DNA of 40,047 nt from Acidobacteriota bacterium (GTDB lineage Bacteria > Acidobacteriota > UBA4820 > DSQY01): the NCBI GenBank assembly GCA_021787565.1, contig JAJYLT010000033.1, forward strand, positions 1 to 40,047, in the 5' to 3' direction. The notes beneath the pieces were generated by a model, which saw only the letters and a list, made by a program, of their open reading frames with translations, searched no databases and was not told where the DNA came from. A program made the position numbers and the translations under genes. This document shows, in pieces, positions 12,105 to 29,588 of the stretch (position 1 is the first letter of the stretch; every line of letters begins with the position of its first letter).

Positions 12105-13481
12105 TCATCGGGGCTTCCACTGGATCTCTTGGTAGAAGACCGGGCTGGGTTCGTGGATCTCCTGCATCAGCTCGTCGCGGAACGTGGGGAGGAAGGTGTC
12201 CCACCGCTGGCACTGGGTGCAGTAGTCCTTCCACTCGGGAGAGGGCTGGTGGCAGGAGGTGCACTCGTAGCTGAATTCGAAGGGATCCAGAATGCGTATG
12301 ACCTCCCGGTAGTGGTCGCAGGCCTTGGCAAGGTCTCCGCGCCTCTCCCTCACGCGTCCCAGGTAATACTGGAGAAGGCCCGACTGACCGACGTTGCCCT
12401 CGACCTCTCTGAGGATGTGCTCGGCCCGGTCGAGGATCTCCAGCCGGTAGAAAAACCGCCCGAGCAGGAACTTGGGCAGGACCTTCCGGTCCGTGGACGC
12501 AATGAGGGTTTGGTACTGCTGGATGGCGCCCTCCGGGTCCCCCTTCTCCAGATAGAGCTGCTCCATGGCCAGAAGGCAGGTGGGGAATGCGTTCTTGCGG
12601 TATCCGTCGATGTAGGTCTCCACCGCCTTTTGTTCCTCGCCGTTCAAGAGGTAGGCTTCGGCGAGCTTCAGGTAGGTGGCCTGAAACGCCGGATACTTCT
12701 TTCTAACCTTTTCCATCTGGGCGATGGCCTCGCCGTGCTTGTCCTGGAGCAGGAGGTCCACCCCGATCTGGTACAGCAGGCCGGGCTTGAACGGAGCGTC
12801 CGCGGCTCGTTCCTCCTCCAGAACCCTCGCCTCTCCGATGTGGTCCTGGATTTCGAGCGCCCGGCGCCAATTGCCCTCCTTGATGTAGAGGTCCCTCAGC
12901 ATCCGCATGCCCTTGAGGGCCCGGCGGGGCTGGATGCGGATGATCTCCAGCAGGTACCGCTTGGCCTCCTCGTGGTCCTGGAGCGCCAGGGCATCTTCGG
13001 TGAGCGCATAGAGCGTCGGGACGTCCTCCGGGTGTTCGTTGAGAGCCTCCCGGTGGTAGGTCAGCGCCTCTTGCGGACGGTCGGCGGAGCGGAGGGCATC
13101 GCCCAGCTTGAGGAGCGCGGGCAGATAGTTGGGCTGGGACTCCAGGGCGTGCTGGAAGTGGTTGATGGCCTCCAGCGGCCGGCTGCCGAGGACGGCGTCG
13201 AGGCCCTTGAGGTAGTGCTCCTCGGCCGCCCTCTCGCTCTGGCGCCTCAGGTCCGTCAGCCAACGCCGCACCACCTGGGCCAGCCCGCTGGCCGCGATCC
13301 AGACGGCGAAGCTGAGGAAGCCGGCCAGGAGGGCGACCGTCAGCACCCACGCCATGGGGACTCGAAGCCCGAAGAAGATGAAGGGCTCTCTCAGGACCTC
13401 CACGTTCCTGGAGACGAGTCCAAGAAGGAGGGCCATCAACAGGATCAGCGTCCCGGTGATGAGGGCGGTCTTCAGGCGCAT
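12105..13481 (-). CDS. lapB: LapA-LapB fusion: membrane-anchored TPR protein with C-terminal rubredoxin-like zinc site
   Basis: A 458-aa protein. Residues 1-80 contain two membrane helices (~5-24 and ~44-66) with SRNVEVLREPFIFFGLRVPM between them and a basic helix after, which is the LapA (DUF1049) pattern. From about residue 88 to 395 there are serial TPR repeats. The end has YECTSCHQ...YCTQCQRW with Cys407, 410, 421 and 424, the rubredoxin-like knuckle of LapB (YciM). In E. coli LapA and LapB are separate neighbouring proteins that control LpxC turnover and LPS assembly. ATG 13481 is chosen because the LapA fold begins there, although the frame is open further upstream into dksA. The assignment rests on layout and Cys spacing. 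Confidence 0.82.
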   Translation of the reverse strand: MRLKTALITGTLILLMALLLGLVSRNVEVLREPFIFFGLRVPMAWVLTVALLAGFLSFAVWIAASGLAQVVRRWLTDLRRQSERAAEEHYLKGLDAVLGSRPLEAINHFQHALESQPNYLPALLKLGDALRSADRPQEALTYHREALNEHPEDVPTLYALTEDALALQDHEEAKRYLLEIIRIQPRRALKGMRMLRDLYIKEGNWRRALEIQDHIGEARVLEEERAADAPFKPGLLYQIGVDLLLQDKHGEAIAQMEKVRKKYPAFQATYLKLAEAYLLNGEEQKAVETYIDGYRKNAFPTCLLAMEQLYLEKGDPEGAIQQYQTLIASTDRKVLPKFLLGRFFYRLEILDRAEHILREVEGNVGQSGLLQYYLGRVRERRGDLAKACDHYREVIRILDPFEFSYECTSCHQPSPEWKDYCTQCQRWDTFLPTFRDELMQEIHEPSPVFYQEIQWKPR

Positions 13482-13491
13482 GTCGATTCGG

Positions 13492-13851
13492 TCACTCGAT
13501 GAGCCCGCGTTCCTGCAAATCCTGGCACTCGAGGCAGTGGCGGGCCCAGGGAACGGCCTCGAGCCGCTTTCGTTGGATGGGCTTGCCGCAGTGGACGCAC
13601 TCCCCGTAGCCTCCCTCCGTTGCGATGACCCGGAGCGCCTCGTCAATCCGCCGCATGACCTTCCGGTCCGCGTCCGAGAGGGAGTACCAGAACTCCTTGT
13701 TGTAGTTGGCGGAGGCCTCGTCGGCCGAGTCCAGCGCTCCGTCCGCCCCCGCGTCCCCGCTCCTGGAGAGCTTATCGCGGTAGGCGCTCTGGAGTTCCGC
13801 CCTCTTGTCCAGGAGCAGCTTCTCGAAGTGCTTCAGGGTCTTCTTGTCCAT
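13492..13851 (-). CDS. dksA: DksA/TraR family C4 zinc-finger RNA polymerase regulator
   Basis: A 119-aa protein, shorter than E. coli DksA (151). It has an N-terminal coiled coil, a tip carrying D41-S-A-D44-E-A46 that matches the DxxDxA motif needed for DksA activity in the RNA polymerase secondary channel, and a zinc finger with Cys85, Cys88, Cys106 and Cys109 (ECVHCGK, HCLECQ). With ppGpp, DksA lowers rRNA transcription and raises amino acid promoters. Its place in a ribosome-biogenesis operon fits. It lies 17 bases after rlmH and 10 bases before lapB. Because the tip motif is conserved, it is probably a functional DksA rather than a TraR-like paralogue. Confidence 0.88.
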   Translation of the reverse strand: MDKKTLKHFEKLLLDKRAELQSAYRDKLSRSGDAGADGALDSADEASANYNKEFWYSLSDADRKVMRRIDEALRVIATEGGYGECVHCGKPIQRKRLEAVPWARHCLECQDLQERGLIE

Positions 13852-13868: not shown

Positions 13869-14330
13869 CTATTTGGCGTAGGCTCTTCCCGTGCAGTGGG
13901 CGAAGGCTCGATAGACCTGTTCGGCGAGGACCAGCGTGGCCATGTCGTGGGTGAGGGTCATGGGAGAGAGGCTCAGCCGGATTTCGGCGAGCTCGAGTGC
14001 CTCACGGCCCAGGCCGTGGGGACCGCCCACGAGAAAGGCCACGCGCTTGCCGGCGTCCTTCTGGCGCTGGAGGAGGCCGGCGAAGCCTCCGCTGTCCATC
14101 GTCCGGCCTCCGGGGTCCAGGGCCACGGCCAAGCAGCCCCTGGGAATCCGCCGGGTCAGGAAGCTCGCCTCCTCCGTCTTGCACGCCTGCGGCTCCTTCT
14201 TGCGGGAGGCCCGAACGGGCTCGACGCGGAAGCTCCACTCCCCTCCGACCATCTTCACGTAACGTTCCACGGCGCGCCCGATCCCCTCGTCCGAGATCCT
14301 TCCCACGTGCAACAGCAAGATCTCCCACAT
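13869..14330 (-). CDS. rlmH: 23S rRNA (pseudouridine1915-N3)-methyltransferase RlmH
   Basis: A 153-aa SPOUT methyltransferase that methylates pseudouridine 1915 in helix 69 of 23S rRNA. Family features are RYVKMVGGEW near residue 25, LAVALDPGGRTMDSGGFA, the SAM-pocket loop VAFLVGGPHGLG and the segment LSLSPMTLTHDMATLVLAEQ, ending YRAF. The conserved end of the family is G-x-x-Y-H-K/R. Here it is GRAYAK, so the terminal His is replaced by Ala although the frame is intact. The stop follows immediately. The gene lies 22 bases after the degenerate AAA gene. Confidence 0.88.
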   Translation of the reverse strand: MWEILLLHVGRISDEGIGRAVERYVKMVGGEWSFRVEPVRASRKKEPQACKTEEASFLTRRIPRGCLAVALDPGGRTMDSGGFAGLLQRQKDAGKRVAFLVGGPHGLGREALELAEIRLSLSPMTLTHDMATLVLAEQVYRAFAHCTGRAYAK

Positions 14331-14352
14331 CCGATTGGCCTCACACTATACC

Positions 14353-15276
14353 CTATCTGGCTTCGCCCCTCAAATGACTCCAGAGGGCCTTGCGGCTGAT
14401 TCCCAGCCACTTCGCGGCCTGGGTCCGGTTGCCGCCTACGCGGGCCAGGACTTCGTGCATGTAAGCGTCGCGAAGTTCCGACAGCGTGAGACGCTGGCGG
14501 ATCGCGGTCTCCAGGCGCTCCCCTCCGCCCCAGAAGGCCGGCGGGAGATCCGCCGGGGTGAGGGGGTCCGCCCCCACCAGGGCCAGGTGTTCCATCCGAT
14601 GGGCGAGCTCCCGGCAGTTCCCCGGCCAGGCGTGGCTCTTCAGGGCGTCCATGAGCTCCTGGGACATGCGGGGTTTCTCGCGGTGGATCCGGCGGCAGCA
14701 TTGGCCGAGGAAGAAGTCGGCGAGGATCGGGACGTCTTCAGGGCGCTGGGCCAGGGGCGGGATCTCGATCCGGATGACGTCCAACCGGTAGAGCAGGTCC
14801 GGCCGGAGGGCTCCTCGCTGGACGAGGAGCTCGGGGGAGTCCAGGAAGGTCGCGCACAGGCGGGCCAGGACCTGGATGGGACGGCCTCCACCCACGCGTT
14901 CCACCTGGCGGGTTTCGAGGACTCGCAGCAGGGCGGCCTGCTGATGGCTCGGCAGCGCCTCCATGCCTCCCATGCAGAGCGTCCCCTGGCCGGCCCTCTC
15001 AAAGAGGCCAGGCCTCTCCGCCACATCCGTTGCGGTTCCCGAATGGACGCCGAAGAGTTCGGCCTCCAGCAGGGTCTCGGGCGCGGCCCCGGTGTGCCAT
15101 TCCAGGAAGGGCCCCCGACGGGGCCCCCAGTGATGGATCCATTGGGCCAGGTGGCTCTTCCCGCAACCCGTGGGTCCCACGAGGAGCACGGGGCTGGACT
15201 CGCGCGCCACCCGCCGGGCCAACTGCATCACCGCCCGGAAGGCCGGGTCCCGGCCCACCGTTCGGGGAGGGGTCAC
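14353..15276 (-). CDS. Degenerate sigma-54-activator-type AAA+ protein with Fis-type HTH
   Basis: A 307-aa protein with the core of a bacterial enhancer-binding protein and no receiver domain. Walker A GPTGCGKS is at 34-41, LEAELFGVHSG at 70-80, the arginine-finger region RPDLLYRLDVIRIEIPPLAQR starts near 158, HAWPGNCREL is at 215-224 and a Fis-type HTH lies at 281-303 (GGNRTQAAKWLGIS). Two essential parts are lost: the GAFTGA loop reads GTATDV, and the Walker B 'LFLDE' reads LCMGGME, so both acidic residues are missing. It should neither contact sigma-54 nor hydrolyse ATP normally, yet the frame is intact. The start at GTG 15276 overlaps the rsfS stop. It may act as a DNA-binding regulator. 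Confidence 0.75.
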   Translation of the reverse strand: MTPPRTVGRDPAFRAVMQLARRVARESSPVLLVGPTGCGKSHLAQWIHHWGPRRGPFLEWHTGAAPETLLEAELFGVHSGTATDVAERPGLFERAGQGTLCMGGMEALPSHQQAALLRVLETRQVERVGGGRPIQVLARLCATFLDSPELLVQRGALRPDLLYRLDVIRIEIPPLAQRPEDVPILADFFLGQCCRRIHREKPRMSQELMDALKSHAWPGNCRELAHRMEHLALVGADPLTPADLPPAFWGGGERLETAIRQRLTLSELRDAYMHEVLARVGGNRTQAAKWLGISRKALWSHLRGEAR

Positions 15277-15620
15277 GGCGCTACCCGAGGGGCGTCCATC
15301 CAGATGCGTTCCAGGCTGTAGAATTCGCGTTTGTCCTCCAGCATCAGGTGAATGATGAAGGAGCCGTAGTCGAGGAGGACCCATTGGCCGTGGGAGAGGC
15401 CTTCCACGTGGTGGGGCCGGAGTTGGAACTCTTCCCGTAGGGCATCCTGGAGGTCCCGGGCCAGGGCCTGGACCTGCCGGGTATTGGTGCCATGGGCTAT
15501 GGCGAAGTAGTCGGTCATGCTCGTCAACTGGCGAAGATCCAGAATGACGGGGTCCAGAGCCTTCCCATCCTCAAGGATCCTCACGATGCCCGCCAGGATC
15601 TCTCTCTCATCAGCCTTCAC
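15273..15620 (-). CDS. rsfS: Ribosome silencing factor RsfS
   Basis: A 115-aa member of the RsfS/Iojap family, which binds ribosomal protein uL14 and blocks subunit joining in starvation. Family features are KALDPVILDLRQLTSMTDYF, IAHGTNTRQVQALA, HVEGLSHGQWVLLDYGSFII and the end REFYSLERIW. The start is placed at GTG 15620 because GGGGAGGAGG lies 6-7 bases upstream. The frame could begin at GTG 15659, overlapping nadD, but that start has no good ribosome binding site. nadD-rsfS-rlmH adjacency is a common bacterial arrangement; here the AAA gene interrupts it. Confidence 0.88.
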   Translation of the reverse strand: MKADEREILAGIVRILEDGKALDPVILDLRQLTSMTDYFAIAHGTNTRQVQALARDLQDALREEFQLRPHHVEGLSHGQWVLLDYGSFIIHLMLEDKREFYSLERIWMDAPRVAP

Positions 15621-15651
15621 CGGTTCCTCCTCCCCGACGGGGCGCCTCGGT

Positions 15652-16236
15652 TCATTCACGGTAGAGCCCTTCCTTCCGAATATAAGCCGCCACGCAGCGG
15701 GGCGTCATGTGCCCCGCGGTTCGTCCGGCAGCAACGGTTTGCCGTATGAGAGTGGAACTCACCGTGAGGGGTTCCCCCTTCAAGAGGTGAACGCGCGAGG
15801 AGGGCAGGCTTCTGGGGACGGGCGCCGATTCGACCCCTCCCCTCGGTGCGACGGCGAGATCGGCCGCCGCCAGGATGTCTCGAAAACGGTGCCAGCGGGG
15901 GAAGGCAGCCAGCGCGTCGGCGCCCACCAAGAGGACGAGGCGGGCGCCGGGGAAACGCGTGCCCAGCGCCTCGACCGTATCGGCGGTGTAGGAGACCTCC
16001 CCCCTCTCCAGCTCGAGGTTTTCGAGTAGCCACCGGCGATGGCCCGAGAGCGCCAGCGCGACCATGGCGGCGCGATGGAATCCGGAGGCATGGGGCGCCT
16101 CGGTCTTGAGAGGCTGCCGGTAGCAGGGGATGAACAGGATCGAATCCAGATCGAGGGCTTGGGAGGCGATTCGGGCCAGGTGCAGATGGCCGTTATGCGG
16201 GGGGTCAAAGCTGCCCCCCAGCAGGCCGATCCTCAT
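15652..16236 (-). CDS. nadD: Nicotinate-nucleotide adenylyltransferase NadD
   Basis: A 194-aa nucleotidyltransferase that makes deamido-NAD from nicotinate mononucleotide and ATP. The N-terminal MRIGLLGGSFDPPHNGHLHL has the GSFDPPHxGH signature, and VSSTLIR corresponds to the ISSTxIR motif. LLVGADALAAFPRWHRF and the end VAAYIRKEGLY are typical. ATG 16236 overlaps the obgE stop (ATGA) with GGAGGAGG directly upstream, so it is translationally coupled. Length and motifs are normal for the family. Confidence 0.93.
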   Translation of the reverse strand: MRIGLLGGSFDPPHNGHLHLARIASQALDLDSILFIPCYRQPLKTEAPHASGFHRAAMVALALSGHRRWLLENLELERGEVSYTADTVEALGTRFPGARLVLLVGADALAAFPRWHRFRDILAAADLAVAPRGGVESAPVPRSLPSSRVHLLKGEPLTVSSTLIRQTVAAGRTAGHMTPRCVAAYIRKEGLYRE

Positions 16237-17237
16237 GCCTCCTCCTCGTCGGACAGGTATCCCCAGGCCTCCGCCAGGAGCCCGTGCAACCCCTTGTGGG
16301 CCGCGGCCGAGACCCGGTGGTAGGGGACGCCGCGGCGGGCGGCGTATTCCCGGAGGGCTCCCTCCTTCTCCGGGTCGAAGGGGATGTCGTCCTTGGTGCC
16401 CACGATGACGACGGGCTTCTGGTCCAGACCCGCTCCATAGGCCGTGAGCTCGTGCTCCACCGTCATCACCCGTTCGAGCGGGTCGGACGCCTGATCGGAA
16501 AGGTCCACCAGGTGAAGGAGAACCCGGGTGCGCTCCACGTGCTTGAGAAACTGATCCCCCAGCCCCACGCCGTGATGGGCCCCCTCGATGAGGCCGGGAA
16601 TGTCGGCGATCACGAAGGAGCGACGGCGGGTCCACTCCACGACTCCCAGGATGGGCCGCAGGGTGGTGAAGGGGTAGGGGGCTATCTTCGGTTTGGCGTT
16701 GGTGACGGCGGCCAGGAGGGTGGACTTGCCGGCGTTGGGGAGCCCCACCAGTCCGACGTCAGCGAGGAGCTTCAGCTCCAGGCGGATCCATCGGGACAGG
16801 CCCTCCTCGCCGGGATCGAACTCTCTGGGAGCCTGGTGGGTGGCGCTCTTGAACCGCGCGTTGCCCCGGCCGCCCCGTCCCCCTTGGGCCACGACGAAGC
16901 GCTGGCGGGACTCCACCAGGTCCGCCAGGACCTCGTCCCCTTCTTCGGCGAGGACGACCGTGCCGGGCGGCACGGGCACCAGCAGGTCTCGCCCGGAGGC
17001 TCCCGTACGCAGGCTACCTTCGCCCGGCTTCCCGCTGGGGGCGATGAAGCTCTTCTTGTAACGGAACGCGACCAACGTCCGGACCTGGGACCTGGCGACG
17101 AGGACGACACTCCCGCCCCTGCCACCATCTCCGCCGTTAGGGCCGCCCTTAGGGACGAATTTTTCCCGGCGAAAACTCACGCATCCCGACCCGCCGCGGC
17201 CCGCCTTGACGAAGATCCGTGCCGAGTCGAGGAACAT
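16233..17237 (-). CDS. obgE: GTPase ObgE/CgtA
   Basis: A 334-aa Obg-family GTPase involved in 50S maturation and the stringent response. The glycine-rich Obg fold occupies residues 1-158 (KAGRGGSGCVSFRREKFVP, then GGPNGGDGGRGG). The G domain has GLPNAGKST, the switch region FTTLRPILG, DIPGLIEGAHHGVGLGDQFL and the GTKDDIPF base-recognition motif. No separate OCT domain follows the G domain, and the protein ends in an acidic EEEA. The order rplU-rpmA-obgE is conserved in many bacteria. The gene starts 6 bases after rpmA. Confidence 0.95.
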   Translation of the reverse strand: MFLDSARIFVKAGRGGSGCVSFRREKFVPKGGPNGGDGGRGGSVVLVARSQVRTLVAFRYKKSFIAPSGKPGEGSLRTGASGRDLLVPVPPGTVVLAEEGDEVLADLVESRQRFVVAQGGRGGRGNARFKSATHQAPREFDPGEEGLSRWIRLELKLLADVGLVGLPNAGKSTLLAAVTNAKPKIAPYPFTTLRPILGVVEWTRRRSFVIADIPGLIEGAHHGVGLGDQFLKHVERTRVLLHLVDLSDQASDPLERVMTVEHELTAYGAGLDQKPVVIVGTKDDIPFDPEKEGALREYAARRGVPYHRVSAAAHKGLHGLLAEAWGYLSDEEEA

Positions 17238-17243
17238 TCGCCG

Positions 17244-17501
17244 CTACTGCGGGGAGACGACGTCGACGTAGAGCCCCAGCTTGCCTCGGTGACGGAAGGA
17301 CACGACGCCGTCCGCGAGCGCGTAGAGGGTATCGTCGCTGCCGCGCCCCACCTGGATGCCGGCTTTGTATGGAGTCCCGCGCTGCCGGACCAGTATGGTC
17401 CCCGCCTTCACGACCTGGCCGCCGAAACGCTTCATGCCCAGCCGCTGCGAGTTGCTGTCGCGGCCGTTGCGGGAACTGCCTTGACCTTTCTTGTGTGCCA
17501 T
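17244..17501 (-). CDS. rpmA: 50S ribosomal protein L27 (bL27)
   Basis: An 85-aa ribosomal protein. [32 protein letters not shown] and the stretch [13 protein letters not shown] are the conserved bL27 core. The N-terminus starts directly at MAHKK, so there is no cleavable extension of the kind found in Firmicutes. GAGAGGACC upstream of the ATG gives a ribosome binding site. The gene lies 13 bases after rplU. Confidence 0.96.
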
Positions 17502-17514
17502 GGTCCTCTCCGAA

Positions 17515-17823
17515 TCAACCCTTGGCGATGCTCAGGATTTCCACCTGGGTGTAGGGCTGGCGATGGCCGTAGATCTTCTTGTACTGCTTGCGGCGCTTCT
17601 TGTGGAACACGAGGATCTTGCGCAGCTTGCCCTCGCCCACCACCTTGCCCGTCACCGTGAAGGCCCCGGAATCCCCCGTCGCCCACACCTTGTCTCCGTC
17701 CACCACGAGAAGCGGGGCCCAACTCACCTCGCTGCCGTCCTCCTGGTGCAAGAGCTCGACCTTGATTTTGTCCCCGGCGGTCACCCGGTGCTGCTTGCCG
17801 CCACTTTCGATGATCGCGTACAT
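17515..17823 (-). CDS. rplU: 50S ribosomal protein L21 (bL21)
   Basis: A 102-aa ribosomal protein. [20 protein letters not shown] at the start and [20 protein letters not shown] near the end are diagnostic of bL21. ATG 17823 has GGAGGTG five bases upstream; the frame is open further upstream through the repeat element but that part is not coding. It is the first gene of the ten-gene leftward operon and lies under a perfect-consensus promoter. Confidence 0.96.
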
Positions 17824-17850: not shown

Positions 17851-17880
17851 ATTATATGAGCTATTTGCGCGGCCTGTCAA
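17851..17880 (-). promoter_or_regulatory. Perfect-consensus sigma-70 promoter for the rplU operon
   Basis: On the minus strand TTGACA (17875-17880) and TATAAT (17851-17856) are exact consensus hexamers with an 18-base spacer. The expected start is about 17844, giving a ~20-base leader before the rplU ATG. The next genes downstream follow with overlaps or gaps of at most about 30 bases as far as tldE, so this promoter could serve all ten. Confidence 0.85.
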
Positions 17881-23016: not shown

Positions 23017-23120
23017 AACCTCCCCGAGGCGGGACTACAATGCCAGGCTGATGCGCCCGATGCGACCGGCGGAAAGGCGCGGGATCTGGCGGGCTGCGTC
23101 CGGGTTCAGGGAGGAAGACG

Positions 23121-24116
23121 ATGCACGTCATGGAGAAGATCAAGGCGAAGGCGCGCTCGAATCGAAAGCGGATCGTCTTGTCGGAGGGAATGGACCAGCG
23201 CATGGTTCTGGCGTCCGTGCAGGCAGCCAGGGAGGGGTTGGCGGAGGTGACTCTGCTCGCCACGGATGCCCAGGTGAAGGCGGCGACCAGCGGGGAGCTG
23301 GGGGTGTTGGCTGGAGTCGAGGTGCTGGATCACACCGCTTCGCCCCTCCTGCCCGAGTTCATCCAGGAGTACCACGCATTGCGCAAGGGCAAGGGCATGA
23401 CCGAGGAAGAGGCCGCCAAGACCATGCGGGACAATGTCTTCTTCGGGGATATGCTGGTGCGGAGGGGGCTGGCGGACGGGTGCGTGAGCGGGGCTTACAA
23501 CACGACGGCCCTGGTGACCAGGGCGGCCCTCCATCTGTTGGGCACGGCTCCGGGGATCAAGACCCTTTCGAGCTGCTTCATCATGGTCCACCCGGATCGG
23601 CAGTTCGGCGAAGGGGGGCTCATGATCTTCGCGGACTGCGCGGTTCTTCCCTTCCCCGACGAAAACCAGCTCGCCGATATTGCCATCGCCTCGGCGGCCA
23701 GCGCCAGGGCCTTTTGCGACATGGAACCGCGCATCGCCATGCTCAGTTTCTCCACCAAAGGGAGCGCCAAACACGAAAACCTGGACAGGATCCTGCGCGC
23801 CCTGGCCATCGTTCGCGAGCGCCGCCCCGACCTGCTCATCGATGGAGAATTGCAGCTCGATGCGGCCCTCGTTCCATTGGTGGGAAGCCGCAAGGCGCCC
23901 ACGAGCGCCGTGGCCGGCAGGGCCAACGTGCTCATCTTCCCCGATTTGAACGCGGGCAACATCGTCTACAAGGCGGTGGAGCGCCTGGGCCGGGCGGAAG
24001 CCATAGGGCCCGTGCTCCAGGGACTCGCCAAGCCCGCCAACGACCTCTCTCGAGGCTGTTCCGTGCAGGATATCGTGAATGTGGCCGCCATCACGGCAGC
24101 CCAGGCCATCGGATAG
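23121..24116 (+). CDS. pta: Phosphate acetyltransferase (short form)
   Basis: A 331-aa PTA/PTB-family enzyme interconverting acetyl-CoA plus phosphate with acetyl phosphate plus CoA. Family features are [20 protein letters not shown], the [19 protein letters not shown] segment, [37 protein letters not shown] and [18 protein letters not shown]. It has only the catalytic domain, without the N-terminal DRTGG/P-loop part of the long E. coli form. GGGAGGA at 23109-23115 selects ATG 23121 over the later ATG 23130. With ackA it forms the acetate overflow/ATP-generating pathway. A TACAAT at 23036-23041 could be its -10, but no good -35 is seen. Confidence 0.93.
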
Positions 24117-24137
24117 GCGCCCGAACGCACAGGAAAG

Positions 24138-24173
24138 GAGGCCGGGGCGTGCGCCACGGTGCGCACCGGCCTC
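24138..24173. other. Stem-loop between pta and ackA
   Basis: GAGGCCGG (24138-24145) pairs with CCGGCCTC (24166-24173), and TGCGC (24150-24154) pairs with GCGCA (24161-24165) inside it. No T-run follows, so it is unlikely to be an intrinsic terminator. It may affect mRNA stability or the relative expression of the two enzymes. Confidence 0.5.
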
Positions 24174-24250
24174 GGTGGCCGCGGTCGGCGGCCGTGATCT
24201 GGGAGGCTCCATCCCGGACGGGAATCTGGAGTCTCCCTCTGGAGGAATCC

Positions 24251-25483
24251 ATGAATACGCTGGTCGTCAACTGCGGCAGTTCGTCCCTCAAGTACCAGCT
24301 CTTCGATATGGCCCATGAGACGCTGGTGGCCAAGGGCCTGGTGGAACGCATCGGATCGGACAACGCCACCTTGAAACACGACTCTCTCGGCGTCGGCAAG
24401 ATCACGATTCGGTCCGGCATCCCCAATCACGCCGTGGCCGTGCACGACATGTTCGACGCCCTTACCGACGGAGAGTACGGCGTGATCAAGGACGTCAAGG
24501 AGATCAGCGCCATCGGTCACCGAGTGGTCCATGGCGGGGAGAAGTTCCACGACTCAGCGCTGTTGCGGGGCGAGGTCGTGGAGGCCATCCGGGACTGCAT
24601 CCGCTTCGCCCCCCTCCATAACCCCCTGAACCTCATGGGCATTGAGGCCTGCCAGAAGTTCAGCCCCACGGTCCCGCAGGTGGCGGTTTTCGACACGGCC
24701 TTTCACCAGACCATGCCCAAGCACGTTTACCTGTACGCCATTCCCTACGAGTACTACCAGAAACACGGGGTCCGGCGGTACGGCTTCCACGGGACCTCCC
24801 ACCAGTTCGTGGCCAATCGGGCCGCCGAGATCCTGGGCCGGCCCCTGGCCTCCCTGAAGATGATCACGGCCCACCTGGGCAACGGCTGCAGCATGACGGC
24901 CATCCAGGACGGGAAGTCCCTCGAAACCTCCATGGGGCTCACTCCGCTCAACGGGCTCATGATGGGCCAGCGCTCGGGCGATATCGACCCGGCCCTCATC
25001 CCCTATATGGCAGAAGTGGAAAAGACGGATGCCGAGGGAGTCGTGGCGATCCTCAACAAGAAAAGCGGACTCCTTGGAGTTTCCGGAGTCAGCTCCGACA
25101 TGCGGGACATCCACAAAGCCAGGAAGGAGGGCGACGAGCGGGCCGCCATGGCTTTCCAGATGTTCTGCTACCGCGTCCGCAAGTACATCGGCACCTATGC
25201 CTCCTCCATGAACGGGCTGGACGTCATCGTCTTCACGGCCGGCATCGGTGAAAATGACGCCGCTGTCCGGGAGACCGCCTGCTCCAACCTGGACTACCTC
25301 GGCGTCGAGATCGACCCGGCGCTCAACGAGTCAGCGGAGCGCGAGAAGATCATCAGCTCGGACAAGAGCCGGGTGATCGTCATGGTGGTGCCCACCAACG
25401 AGGAGCTCATGATCGCCAGGGAGACGGTCCGCCTGGTGGGCGGAGCCCAGGAGGCACCTCGCCCGAACAAGAGGAAGCACTGA
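24251..25483 (+). CDS. ackA: Acetate kinase
   Basis: A 410-aa ASKHA-fold kinase that makes acetate and ATP from acetyl phosphate and ADP. MNTLVVNCGSSSLKYQLFD is the signature start. HRVVHGGEKF, VFDTAFHQTMP (with the catalytic Asp), RRYGFHGTSHQFV, the ITAHLGNGCSMTAI phosphate loop, METSMGLTPLNGLMMGQRSG-like ETSMGLTPLNGLMMGQRSG and IVFTAGIGEND are all present. GGAGG five bases before ATG 24251 fixes the start; the frame is open upstream, but that part overlaps pta. It ends 5 bases before the converging activator gene, and no terminator is seen between them. Confidence 0.95.
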   Translation: MNTLVVNCGSSSLKYQLFDMAHETLVAKGLVERIGSDNATLKHDSLGVGKITIRSGIPNHAVAVHDMFDALTDGEYGVIKDVKEISAIGHRVVHGGEKFHDSALLRGEVVEAIRDCIRFAPLHNPLNLMGIEACQKFSPTVPQVAVFDTAFHQTMPKHVYLYAIPYEYYQKHGVRRYGFHGTSHQFVANRAAEILGRPLASLKMITAHLGNGCSMTAIQDGKSLETSMGLTPLNGLMMGQRSGDIDPALIPYMAEVEKTDAEGVVAILNKKSGLLGVSGVSSDMRDIHKARKEGDERAAMAFQMFCYRVRKYIGTYASSMNGLDVIVFTAGIGENDAAVRETACSNLDYLGVEIDPALNESAEREKIISSDKSRVIVMVVPTNEELMIARETVRLVGGAQEAPRPNKRKH

Positions 25484-25488
25484 CTCCC

Positions 25489-28400
25489 TCAATGCCTGGA
25501 TAGCCCCAGGCGCTTCATCTTCTGAAGCAGGCTCTGGCGGCTGATGGCCAGGGACCGGGCCGCGGCCGAGAGGTTGCCGCCCGAATCCTGGATGGCCTGG
25601 GCGATGGCCTTCCGCTCCGCTTCCTCCAGGATGGCTGGCAGGCTTCGGCCTCCCGGCCCGTCGCGAGGACCCTCCTTGAGGCGCCGGGGCAAGTGCTCCT
25701 CCCGCAGCTCGGGGGCGCCCGCGGAGGCGACGAGCATGGCTCGGGCCGTGTTCTGGAGTTCCCGGACGTTGCCGGGCCAGGGGTAGGTTCCAAGGCGCGT
25801 CAGAACGGGCGGCGTGACTCGTGGGGACGGAAAGCCCTCGGCGGCCGCGGCCTCCTCCAGAAAGTGCGCAAAGAGCAGGGGGATATCTTCGGGACGCCGC
25901 CGCAACGGGGGCACTTCGATTTCGATGACGCGAAGCCTGTGCAGCAGGTCCTGACGGAACAGCCCTTCGGACGCCGCCATCTCCAGGTCCCGGTTGGTGG
26001 CGGCCACGATGCGGGCATCGGATTCGCGACCGCGCACTTCACCCAGCGGAAGGAAGGTGCCGTCCTGAAGATACCGGAGGAGGTGCGCCTGGACCTCCTG
26101 GGACAGCTCGCCCACCTCGTCCAGGAACAGGGTGCTGCCCCGGGCGGCCTCCACGAGCCCCGTCTGATCCCGATCGGCCCCCGTGAAGGCCCCCCGCCGA
26201 TGACCGAAGAGGAGGCTCGCGGCCAGCGTCGGGGTCAGGTTGGCGCAGTTGGCCGCCACCCAGTTCTTGGGTGCGCGGGGGGAGGCGGCGTGGAGAGCTT
26301 TGGCGCAGGCCTCCTTGCCGACACCGGGTTCGCCGGTGAAGAGGACCGGGAAGTGAAAGATCGACGCCCTTTGGATGGCCTCGATCACGGCCCGCATGGC
26401 CGATGAGGCGGAGAGGAGGTGGCGGCCGATGGCGGGATGGATGTCGCGGCCGGGTGGAGGTGGAGTCTGGACCGGGGCCGCGGGTAACTGCCGGATCCAA
26501 ATCGCGGCCAGCCGTCTCTGATCGGCGTCAAAGGAGATGGGGCCCGCCTTGAAAAGGCCGCACCAGAGGCCGGATTCGGTGGCAAGGCCGAGGACGAATC
26601 CCCCCGCCACGACTTTCTCTCCCCGGCTCCCGGCGGCCTGTAGCAGGGAGCGGCGCTGTTCCTCGGTCCCTTCGCCCCACCAGTGAGGGGGTGATCCGGG
26701 ACGCAGGAGATAGCCCGCCGCGGCTCCCGTCCGCTCCAGGATGCCGGCCATGGTCTCTTCGGGAGTGGACTCCGCCGCGGCCAGGAAGGCGAGGGGGCTT
26801 GCTTCGGCGCGTGTTGCGGGGCCGGCGGCAGGTGGGGCCTCGGTCAAGAGTCCGAGAAGGCCACGCTCGGGGCCTCGCACGTGGTTCTTGGCGAGAAAGT
26901 CGCAGATCCACTGCCGGTCCTCGGGAGAAAGGGGTGGCAGCGCCCCCAGGCAGGCCAGCTCCCATAAGGCCCTCGCCGCCAGGTAGGGACTCCGTGCGTG
27001 GCCGGCTTCGGTCCAGGCCCGGAGGAGTGCGGATTCGGCGACCTCTCCCGTCTCTCCTGCCGCCAGGAGATGCCAGAAGGCCCGGAAATAGGGTGTGGCC
27101 TGGCCGAGCAATCCGACCGCCACGTGGTGATCCTCGGCCGAAAAGGAGCCCGCGCCCCTGCGGGCAGCGGCGCACCGGAGGGCCGAAATGGCCAATCGGT
27201 CATCCGCATCGACGTCGGGGTGGACCTGGTTTGAGATCTCCTTCACCAAGCGCCGAAGCTTCTGGATCTGCCGGGTCTGCAGGAGCAGCTCGCCCCTGAG
27301 GTACTGGAGGGGCAACCGGACCTCGGGGTCCGTGCCCGGAAGGGAGGAGAGCCCCTTCTCCGTCCATTCCAGCGCCGCGGGATAGTCGCCGAGCTGCTGG
27401 TGAATGGAGCCGAGCCAGAAGCAGTCGACGGCCAGGTACTGTGGATTCTGGGGGCTTCCCTTTCTGGCCGCGGAATTCTCGAATTGCCGGAGGGCCGGCA
27501 ACAGGTTGCCGGCCTCGGCCGTGCACGCCGCGAGGTCGGTCCGCGCCACCTCCTCGAGGGTTGGAAGGCCCAGGGCGATGGCTCCTTCCAGACCGCGCCG
27601 GAGGCGTCGAGAAGCCTCGTCGAAGCGAAGCAGGCGTCGAAGGACGTTCGCGCAGTCGCACTCGCATCCCGATTCCAGGCTCCTGAAGCCGAAGCTTGAG
27701 GCCAGGCTCCGGGCCTCCTCGAATCCGGAGAGCGCGGCCGCGTGCTCGCCGAGCTTCTGGTGGAGCATGGCACGCCGGTGGGTAAGCAGGAAGCGCGTGA
27801 TCGGCTGCGCGGATGGGGGAGTCACCGCGCCTGCCCTCTCCAGAAGCGCGAGTGCTTGCTCCGGCCGGTCGTCGTGCAGCACCGCCGTGGCCCAGTGGCA
27901 GAGGGCCTGCACGCGAAGGTCCGGGTCGTTCGTCGTCGTGGCCACCCCCTCCAGGCACGATTCCGCCTCGGGAAACCTCCCCAGCAACCAGTGGAACTGT
28001 CCCTTCAGGAGGTGGATGGCGTCTCGCTCGGCGGCCGGAATCGAACGGGCCAGTGCCTCGTCCGCTTGCCGATCGGCGGCGCGGTAGTCCTGAAGCCTCT
28101 CCAGGGCCTTGATCCGCTGGAAGGCCAGGCCGTGACTCCACCTGCCCTCCTCGGAGAGTCCCTCCCACATCCGCATCGCCAGAAGGGGCTGGCCCACGTG
28201 AAGGAGAACCACGCCCTCCCAGTATCGTCCTGCCTCCGCATCCTTCGGATGCGCCTCCCTCGCCCCGTGGAGAAGGGCCGCCAAATGGCCCTCGGCGGCC
28301 AACAGGGCGGGCTGTGAGGTCGGCGCGGCCGGCGGGATGGCTTGTGGTCCCCATGAGCCCAAGACTGAGCGGGCGGGAGACGGCATCGGGACCGGCGTCG

Positions 28401-29556
28401 GCGGAAGGAGGGAGTCTCCGCACCGAGGGTGATCGCCGGGACAACTGGAGAGCGCGACCAGCAGAAGTTCAGGGTCATCCCCGAGCAGCGCCCGAGCGTG
28501 GTCCATGTACCAACCTTCGGCGGTCTCGGAGAACCAGAGCAGCCGCGGTGAGCTGATCTGTCCACAGGGTCCCCCTTGGGTCTCGTGGAGGATGACCAGC
28601 GGGACGGAGGCGCTCGCGGCGGCCTGATCGAGAACGGCCCGGCTGTCGGGGTCGAGGGCCTCGCCGGGCCAAAGAAGCCAGCCCACCCCGCGAGGGGGAA
28701 GGGCGAGCAGCGGGGTGAGCCTTTCCGTGAACTGGCGGGCTTCACCGATCAGGCCCTCACGCATCCAGGCCTCGGCCTCATGTTTTCCCCCCAAGACCTG
28801 CCGAACCAGGGGTTCCAGCGCGGCGAATGGGTAGGGAGGAGGGTGCCCCAAGGGGACGGGGTCGAGGGCCAGTCCTCCGCGGTCGATGGGAAGCGCGAGT
28901 CCGAACAAGGCCTCAAGGAGCACTGAACGGGGCGCCGTGCGAACCCCATGGACGCCGGGCGAAGAGAATTGCCCCGGTGGCGCCCACCGAAACCCCAGGC
29001 CCCACCCAGGAGAAAGGCCAGGAGGGGGCCCATCTCCGGCCAGACTCCAGAGGCCCAGCAGCCGGCTCCGAAAAGGAGCGATGTCTCCTCCGTTGCCGGC
29101 CAGGGTGGAGGCTAGCCATCGGTTCCAGGCGGCGAACCGGCGGTGTCTGCGGGGGATGCTGGGCCAGGGGCCCTGTGGGGGAGGGTGGCGTCCGGAGAGG
29201 AGGCGGAAGAGCAGGGCGGCGTACCCCGCCAACTGGGAGTCGTCCGGCAGAGGTGCTGCCGCCGCTCGAAAAAGCGGGAGCCCATCGGGCGTCAGCACCC
29301 AATCCCGAGGCCCCGGTCGCAGGGGCCATCCCTCCGCCTCCAGGAAGGCCAGAGAGGAGAAGAGGCCCAGGCCGAAACGAAGGATCTCTTCCTCGCCGCG
29401 CAGGTTGAGGGGTGAACGCGAAACGCCGGCGGCCGAAGGGTCGCTCCCCCAGGAGAGCCCCGGACCCAAAGCAGGATGCACGAGTATCCAAGAAGACGGG
29501 CTGAGCGATACAGCGCCTGCCTGAACGCCGCCTTTCGGCTGATGGGAGCGGCTCAA
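25489..29556 (-). CDS. Giant sigma-54-dependent activator with TPR sensor region
   Basis: A ~1355-aa protein. The N-terminal ~180 residues hold a weak kinase-C-lobe-like pattern (WVLTPDGLPLFR, GYAALLFRLLSG) without catalytic motifs. Residues ~200-400 are unassigned and partly resemble a decayed ATPase domain. About 430-890 form TPR-type helix pairs, and ~920-1030 resemble a degenerate GAF domain. The C-terminus is a complete enhancer-binding module: Walker A GEPGVGK (1075-1081), GAFTGA (1122-1127), LFLDEVGEL (1143-), YPWPGNVREL and a Fis-type HTH (1324-1355). It should activate sigma-54 promoters in response to a TPR-sensed partner or ligand. The frame opens at TTG 29586; TTG 29556 is preferred because AGGGGGA precedes it and the predicted promoter lies too close to 29586. 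Confidence 0.85.
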   Translation of the reverse strand: MSRSHQPKGGVQAGAVSLSPSSWILVHPALGPGLSWGSDPSAAGVSRSPLNLRGEEEILRFGLGLFSSLAFLEAEGWPLRPGPRDWVLTPDGLPLFRAAAAPLPDDSQLAGYAALLFRLLSGRHPPPQGPWPSIPRRHRRFAAWNRWLASTLAGNGGDIAPFRSRLLGLWSLAGDGPPPGLSPGWGLGFRWAPPGQFSSPGVHGVRTAPRSVLLEALFGLALPIDRGGLALDPVPLGHPPPYPFAALEPLVRQVLGGKHEAEAWMREGLIGEARQFTERLTPLLALPPRGVGWLLWPGEALDPDSRAVLDQAAASASVPLVILHETQGGPCGQISSPRLLWFSETAEGWYMDHARALLGDDPELLLVALSSCPGDHPRCGDSLLPPTPVPMPSPARSVLGSWGPQAIPPAAPTSQPALLAAEGHLAALLHGAREAHPKDAEAGRYWEGVVLLHVGQPLLAMRMWEGLSEEGRWSHGLAFQRIKALERLQDYRAADRQADEALARSIPAAERDAIHLLKGQFHWLLGRFPEAESCLEGVATTTNDPDLRVQALCHWATAVLHDDRPEQALALLERAGAVTPPSAQPITRFLLTHRRAMLHQKLGEHAAALSGFEEARSLASSFGFRSLESGCECDCANVLRRLLRFDEASRRLRRGLEGAIALGLPTLEEVARTDLAACTAEAGNLLPALRQFENSAARKGSPQNPQYLAVDCFWLGSIHQQLGDYPAALEWTEKGLSSLPGTDPEVRLPLQYLRGELLLQTRQIQKLRRLVKEISNQVHPDVDADDRLAISALRCAAARRGAGSFSAEDHHVAVGLLGQATPYFRAFWHLLAAGETGEVAESALLRAWTEAGHARSPYLAARALWELACLGALPPLSPEDRQWICDFLAKNHVRGPERGLLGLLTEAPPAAGPATRAEASPLAFLAAAESTPEETMAGILERTGAAAGYLLRPGSPPHWWGEGTEEQRRSLLQAAGSRGEKVVAGGFVLGLATESGLWCGLFKAGPISFDADQRRLAAIWIRQLPAAPVQTPPPPGRDIHPAIGRHLLSASSAMRAVIEAIQRASIFHFPVLFTGEPGVGKEACAKALHAASPRAPKNWVAANCANLTPTLAASLLFGHRRGAFTGADRDQTGLVEAARGSTLFLDEVGELSQEVQAHLLRYLQDGTFLPLGEVRGRESDARIVAATNRDLEMAASEGLFRQDLLHRLRVIEIEVPPLRRRPEDIPLLFAHFLEEAAAAEGFPSPRVTPPVLTRLGTYPWPGNVRELQNTARAMLVASAGAPELREEHLPRRLKEGPRDGPGGRSLPAILEEAERKAIAQAIQDSGGNLSAAARSLAISRQSLLQKMKRLGLSRH

Positions 29557-29588
29557 CGATCCCCCTACCAAAGAAGATAAGAGCAATC

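Follow-up and report, generated by a model that had tools for sequence, protein, structure and literature searches.

A sigma-54-type AAA protein without its Walker B acids, conserved beside rsfS in an order of Acidobacteriota, is probably an ATP-binding DNA regulator

Why would a bacterium keep, within a ribosome-biogenesis operon, a sigma-54-type AAA protein from which the hallmark motifs of the class are gone? The question is raised by a 40,047-nucleotide stretch of an Acidobacteriota genome (contig JAJYLT010000033.1 of assembly GCA_021787565.1; hereafter, the window), the minus strand of which carries, in this order, rplU, rpmA, obgE, nadD, rsfS, the AAA gene, rlmH, a DksA/TraR-type zinc-finger gene and a TPR gene (Table 1). 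The AAA frame is open, as the first-pass annotation of the DNA had stated, with no break between the GTG at 15276 and the stop at 14353 of the minus strand. This GTG overlaps the rsfS stop codon by four bases (GTGA), and an ATGA or GTGA overlap of the two genes is present in most members of the order. The recurrent overlap fits the translational coupling to rsfS that had been proposed, although an overlap does not prove coupling. A promoter-like sequence, TTGAGG-17-TATAGT (9 of 12 matches), lies at the 3' end of the AAA gene, directly before rlmH (14345-14373, minus strand). The TPR protein (12105-13589, minus strand), downstream of the DksA-like gene and also adjoining in relatives, has a C-terminal CxxC...CxxC stretch and presumably resembles LapB in layout. 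Elsewhere in the window, a 1365-residue frame (25489-29586, minus strand) combines TPR repeats, a sigma-54 activation domain with GAFTGA and DE, and a C-terminal Fis HTH, and an 810-residue frame (23051-25483, plus strand) is an acetate kinase in its C-terminal half, its first 400 residues being without a Pfam match. No Rfam match was found in the window.

The 307-residue AAA protein matches the Pfam families Sigma54_activat (PF00158; E = 2e-39), AAA_lid_14 and HTH_8, and is devoid of an N-terminal sensor domain. We aligned it with its orthologues and with 114 other bacterial enhancer-binding proteins (EBPs, the sigma-54 activators), 22 of these from the window's own genome. The alignment bore out the two substitutions first read from the sequence, GTATDV for GAFTGA and LCMGGME for LFLDE, as well as the intact state of Walker A (GPTGCGKS), of the arginine fingers (R158 and R164) and of the Fis HTH. 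Because the LFLDEIG position reads LCMGGME, both Walker B acids are gone. Two further losses were absent from the earlier list: Phe-Leu stands in place of the sensor I Thr-Asn, and His in place of the switch Asn. By comparison, the Walker B Asp is present in 114/114 of the other EBPs and is followed by Glu (110) or Asp (4). Set against these proteins, the motif losses in the window protein are real and beyond chance.

Table 1. Features of the AAA gene and its operon in the window.
Feature	Position	Strand	Basis
rplU, first cluster gene	17515..17823	minus	
Sigma-70 promoter before rplU, TTGACA-18-TATAAT, perfect	17851..17880	minus	
rpmA	17244-17501	minus	
obgE, upstream operon gene	16233..17237	minus	ORF, synteny
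nadD	15652-16236	minus	
rsfS, ribosome silencing factor	15273..15659	minus	PF02410 match at 15300-15587
Degenerate sigma-54-type AAA+/Fis-HTH protein, 307 aa, GTG start	14353..15276	minus	ORF, Pfam, orthologues
Walker A GPTGCGKS, residues 34-41	15154..15177	minus	motif alignment
L1 loop GTATDV where EBPs have GAFTGA, residues 80-85	15022..15039	minus	alignment
Walker B region LCMGGME for LFLDEIG, residues 100-106, D103 and E104 lost	14959..14979	minus	
Sensor I, Thr-Asn replaced by Phe-Leu, residues 144-145	14842..14847	minus	alignment
Arginine fingers R158 and R164, intact	14785..14805	minus	alignment
Sensor II GNxRE with R222, intact	14608..14622	minus	alignment
Fis-type HTH, recognition helix with invariant S294, R295 and K296	14371..14427	minus	HTH_8, conservation
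rlmH, 23S rRNA methyltransferase	13869..14330	minus	ORF, synteny; named from sequence and context

In all 13 genomes available for the order, which represent 6 genera and 2 families, an orthologue occupies the same place, with identities to the window protein as low as 39%. The first-pass annotation had named an alignment of orthologues as the way to separate a conserved change from a private one, and every order copy covering the sites shares the losses (the counts of 12 or 13 that follow take in only the rows covering each motif). The L1 loop reads G[VAIT]AT[GD]V in the order, with an aromatic residue in 0/12 readable members. The canonical Walker B Asp at 103 and Glu at 104 are each found in 0/13, residue 103 being S, A, E, G, V or T. 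Sensor I has Phe in 13/13 members and Thr or Ser in none (0/13), the pair reading Phe-Gln or similar. The order members do keep K40 (12/12), R158 and R164 (13/13) and R222 (12/12). Residues A82, V85, G104, E106, F144 and P148 are invariant across the order, in an alignment in which only 63 of 296 columns are. Estimates of dN/dS were 0.113 for the window and its congener and 0.171 and 0.053 in other order pairs; a fourth comparison yielded zero amino-acid changes over 191 codons. The AAA gene is under purifying selection in the order.

The order's copy also belongs to a wider family in Acidobacteriota whose genes follow rsfS. In a survey of 98 rsfS neighbourhoods and four further loci, an EBP-like gene came after rsfS at 40 loci outside the order, representing 36 genera and 26 families by a hand count. 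Some family members are canonical, with both GAFTGA and DE (L041, L046, L051, L151 and L152). The Walker B Glu is kept in 17 of the 38 aligned members outside the order and missing in 21, and the Walker B variants found there comprise DG, DR, DL, DM, DQ, DA, DH, DD, NQ and EN. Common in the L1 loop of these members is GAFTDA, which is listed among the variants expected to retain activation (PMC4641369). In three members from family f5 with 1.9 Mb genomes (L172, L212 and L231), the arginine fingers are missing along with the Walker B Glu, but Walker A and the HTH are retained, and these genomes still contain rpoN. At locus L226 (genome G121; frame 1800-2756), an in-frame deletion begins just after the Walker B Asp and extends beyond the arginine fingers, leaving the HTH untouched; the copy in its congener L045 is of full length, and the deletion may be either real or an assembly collapse. 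At L236 (G096) the gene is in two frames, through a frameshift or an assembly error, and in one long frame in the congener L189. We did not find rsfS, rlmH or nadD beside 79 EBP loci outside Acidobacteriota, a weak test of the cluster's distribution because those loci were selected for EBP similarity. No relative was found among viral contigs, and an EBP family beside rsfS is apparently undescribed in the open-licence literature that we searched.

Phylogenetic analyses separated this family from other EBPs. In a 96-row tree, 47 comparison EBPs fall on one side of a branch with SH-aLRT support of 100%; thus, the rsfS-linked genes, the order's included, sit together on the other side. A 58-row tree built without the motif columns gave the same split (100/98) and recovered the order as one clade (100/99). 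The changes needed on the latter tree are two for the Walker B Asp, two for the L1 aromatic and at least eight for the Walker B Glu, the eight being a rough figure because several deep forks are not resolved. The motif GVATGV also occurs in some comparison EBPs with an intact Walker B, and we rejected descent of the order's copy from such DE-keeping proteins because they fall among the comparison EBPs. GxATGV alone is weak evidence, given the prediction that an EBP of Desulfovibrio with GVATGV functions with sigma-54 (PMC4641369); the losses at Walker B and sensor I should be given more weight.

In 12/12 readable order members, the GK of Walker A is followed by Ser or Thr; the same holds for 3/114 other EBPs, in most of which Glu follows. 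A Ser or Thr at this position is the usual Mg ligand in P-loop proteins; hence, it could compensate for the missing Walker B Asp and may aid the binding of Mg-nucleotide. AlphaFold2 returned a confident AAA-HTH model (pLDDT 93, pTM 0.79), in which the altered pocket is poorly informed because the underlying alignment is almost all ordinary EBPs. The top PDB matches of the model were Brucella NtrX (both nucleotide-free and with ATP or ADP), FlrC, ZraR, PspF and FleQ. Mutants of PspF illustrate the effects of altering the catalytic site: E108Q has less than 1% of the ATPase activity, about 30-fold tighter ATP binding and forms a constitutive hexamer, and with E108A a reduced activity remained on pre-opened DNA (PMC4132715). 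The NtrC protein of R. capsulatus, which acts with sigma-70, needs ATP binding but not hydrolysis (PMC10274813).

Of all parts of the protein, the recognition helix varies least within the family. Arg295-Lys296 is present in 49/49 readable members, canonical and degenerate alike, and Lys296 in 14 of 107 other EBPs (13%). Such family-wide retention suggests that a shared DNA site was kept despite the change in mechanism. Upstream of rplU, the TTGACA of the sigma-70 promoter is at the same place in 7/7 of the other order sequences with full coverage of this region. The -35 element in the window coincides in part with a 6-bp dyad (GCTATT-N13-AATAGC); the other order sequences do not share this dyad, nor did we find a shared palindromic operator before rplU among 8 order sequences. 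No excess of -24/-12 promoters was detected near the sampled loci (19 found versus 25 expected). We also considered whether the motifs were lost because sigma-54 itself had been lost from these genomes, and rejected this explanation: rpoN is present in 75/78 of all genomes tested and in 11/13 of the order, which makes the loss particular to the AAA protein. One order genome of family f2 (G009; 95% complete) contains the degenerate EBP as well as other EBP matches, yet no RpoN DNA-binding domain was found in it.

The persistence of rpoN in 11 of the 13 order genomes also makes possible an indirect role in sigma-54 transcription, whereby the protein would form mixed rings with intact EBPs or hold the sigma-54 polymerase without hydrolysis and so tune another activator. 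The window's genome supplies the components (rpoN plus some 22 EBPs that keep the Walker B acids), the intact arginine fingers would complete a neighbour's site, and linked dimers of wild-type and E108Q PspF are functional (PMC4132715). Further, the NtrC of Caulobacter, which is without GAFTGA, influences some sigma-54 genes (PMC12421884). We nevertheless regard such a role as unlikely, for the L1 aromatic is gone in addition to catalysis, sigma-54 promoters are not in excess at the locus and the copy found in the order is distantly paralogous to the other EBPs.

Less probable still is an active ATPase with a relocated acid, in which the invariant E106, two residues past the lost Glu, takes over catalysis. 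Glu at this position in 13/13 order members, against Gly in 70% of other EBPs, is what this explanation would predict, and Walker A, the arginine fingers and sensor II are retained; yet D103 has also given way to an assortment of residues, sensor I reads Phe-Gln or similar, and the family members outside the order that are without E104 have no common Glu at 106. Equally improbable, in our view, is that the protein works primarily as a protein-level partner of ribosome biogenesis, through RsfS or ObgE, with DNA a secondary matter. Its constant neighbours rsfS, rlmH and obgE and the overlap with rsfS would suit such a partner, but a shared operon requires no physical contact, and the most family-specific conserved part of the protein is the recognition helix (K296 in 49/49), which points to DNA binding. 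Finally, a decaying gene without function in this lineage, suggested by the several catalytic motifs lost and by the broken relatives in other families (the frameshift at L236 and the large internal deletion at L226), is a reading that we reject for the order, where the orthologues share the loss of GAFTGA and DE in frames that are all open, with dN/dS of 0.05-0.17, invariant replacement residues and an intact HTH.

The shared losses, the intact HTH and the purifying selection argue that the gene is not simply decaying and that its product is probably an ATP-binding DNA regulator. The fuller reading, to which we give somewhat better than even confidence, is that a stand-alone EBP of the nadD-rsfS-rlmH cluster, spread across Acidobacteriota, became a pseudo-ATPase and now serves as an ATP-binding, non-hydrolysing DNA regulator that does not remodel sigma-54. 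From the residues lost and kept, we judge it very likely that the protein does not hydrolyse ATP, at least not at a normal rate, and highly likely that it delivers no sigma-54 power stroke and is not a canonical sigma-54 activator. Binding of DNA is, in our judgement, just as likely, and binding of ATP reasonably likely. Bound ATP would set or stabilise the oligomeric state, and the oligomer could then bind DNA via the Fis HTH and regulate sigma-70 promoters, as a repressor or an activator, much as R. capsulatus NtrC does. The first-pass annotation had envisioned an ATP-binding repressor or sigma-70-dependent regulator of the ribosome-biogenesis operon that perhaps senses nucleotide level; the data indeed point best to a protein that binds ATP and DNA without being a canonical sigma-54 activator. 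That the operon is among its targets, with cellular ATP as the signal, would be a guess, and we consider action on its own operon rather unlikely. Somewhat more doubtful is the broadest version, in which a phylum-wide regulator of ribosome biogenesis was repeatedly turned into a nucleotide-bound, sigma-70 type that reads ATP without spending it, the ATPase having been lost on at least several independent occasions and the DNA site kept.

EBPs without a sigma-54 partnership have so far been known singly. The rsfS-linked family spans, at one fixed genomic place, the full range from canonical to dead, and with this range in one family the path from activator to passive regulator is testable via relatives. 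If the operon were the target, nucleotide state would be tied to ribosome-biogenesis genes in a phylum with little-studied gene regulation.

Among known systems, PspF shares with the AAA protein the AAA+ and Fis HTH layout without an N-terminal domain and about 34% identity over the AAA domain, and differs in having GAFTGA and the Walker B DE of a true sigma-54 activator. The best fold match over both AAA and HTH is NtrX of Brucella abortus (5m7n, 5m7o and 5m7p; about 30% identity), which was solved with ATP and ADP and differs as a response regulator with a receiver domain. VpsR (7v2b), a c-di-GMP-responsive protein with a receiver domain, is a weaker sequence match (E = 7e-25), and TyrR, DhaR and HupR carry regulatory domains. 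Vibrio cholerae VpsR is an atypical EBP without GAFTGA that works at sigma-70 promoters, reportedly independently of ATP (PMC10274813), and E. coli TyrR and DhaR and R. capsulatus HupR are EBP homologues with a non-functional GAFTGA and sigma-70 partners (PMC3162934). The AAA protein resembles the sigma-70-dependent TyrR and R. capsulatus NtrC type in its defective GAFTGA and intact Fis HTH, and is unlike TyrR, DhaR and HupR in being AAA-HTH only and in residing in a ribosome-biogenesis operon. The NtrC proteins of R. capsulatus and Caulobacter, which work at sigma-70 promoters, have likewise lost the L1 sigma-54 motif and kept Walker A and the Fis HTH. In both, however, L1 is deleted and a receiver domain is present, and the Caulobacter protein needs its Walker B Asp, whereas the AAA protein has a substituted L1, has lost both Walker B and sensor I, and carries no N-terminal sensor domain.
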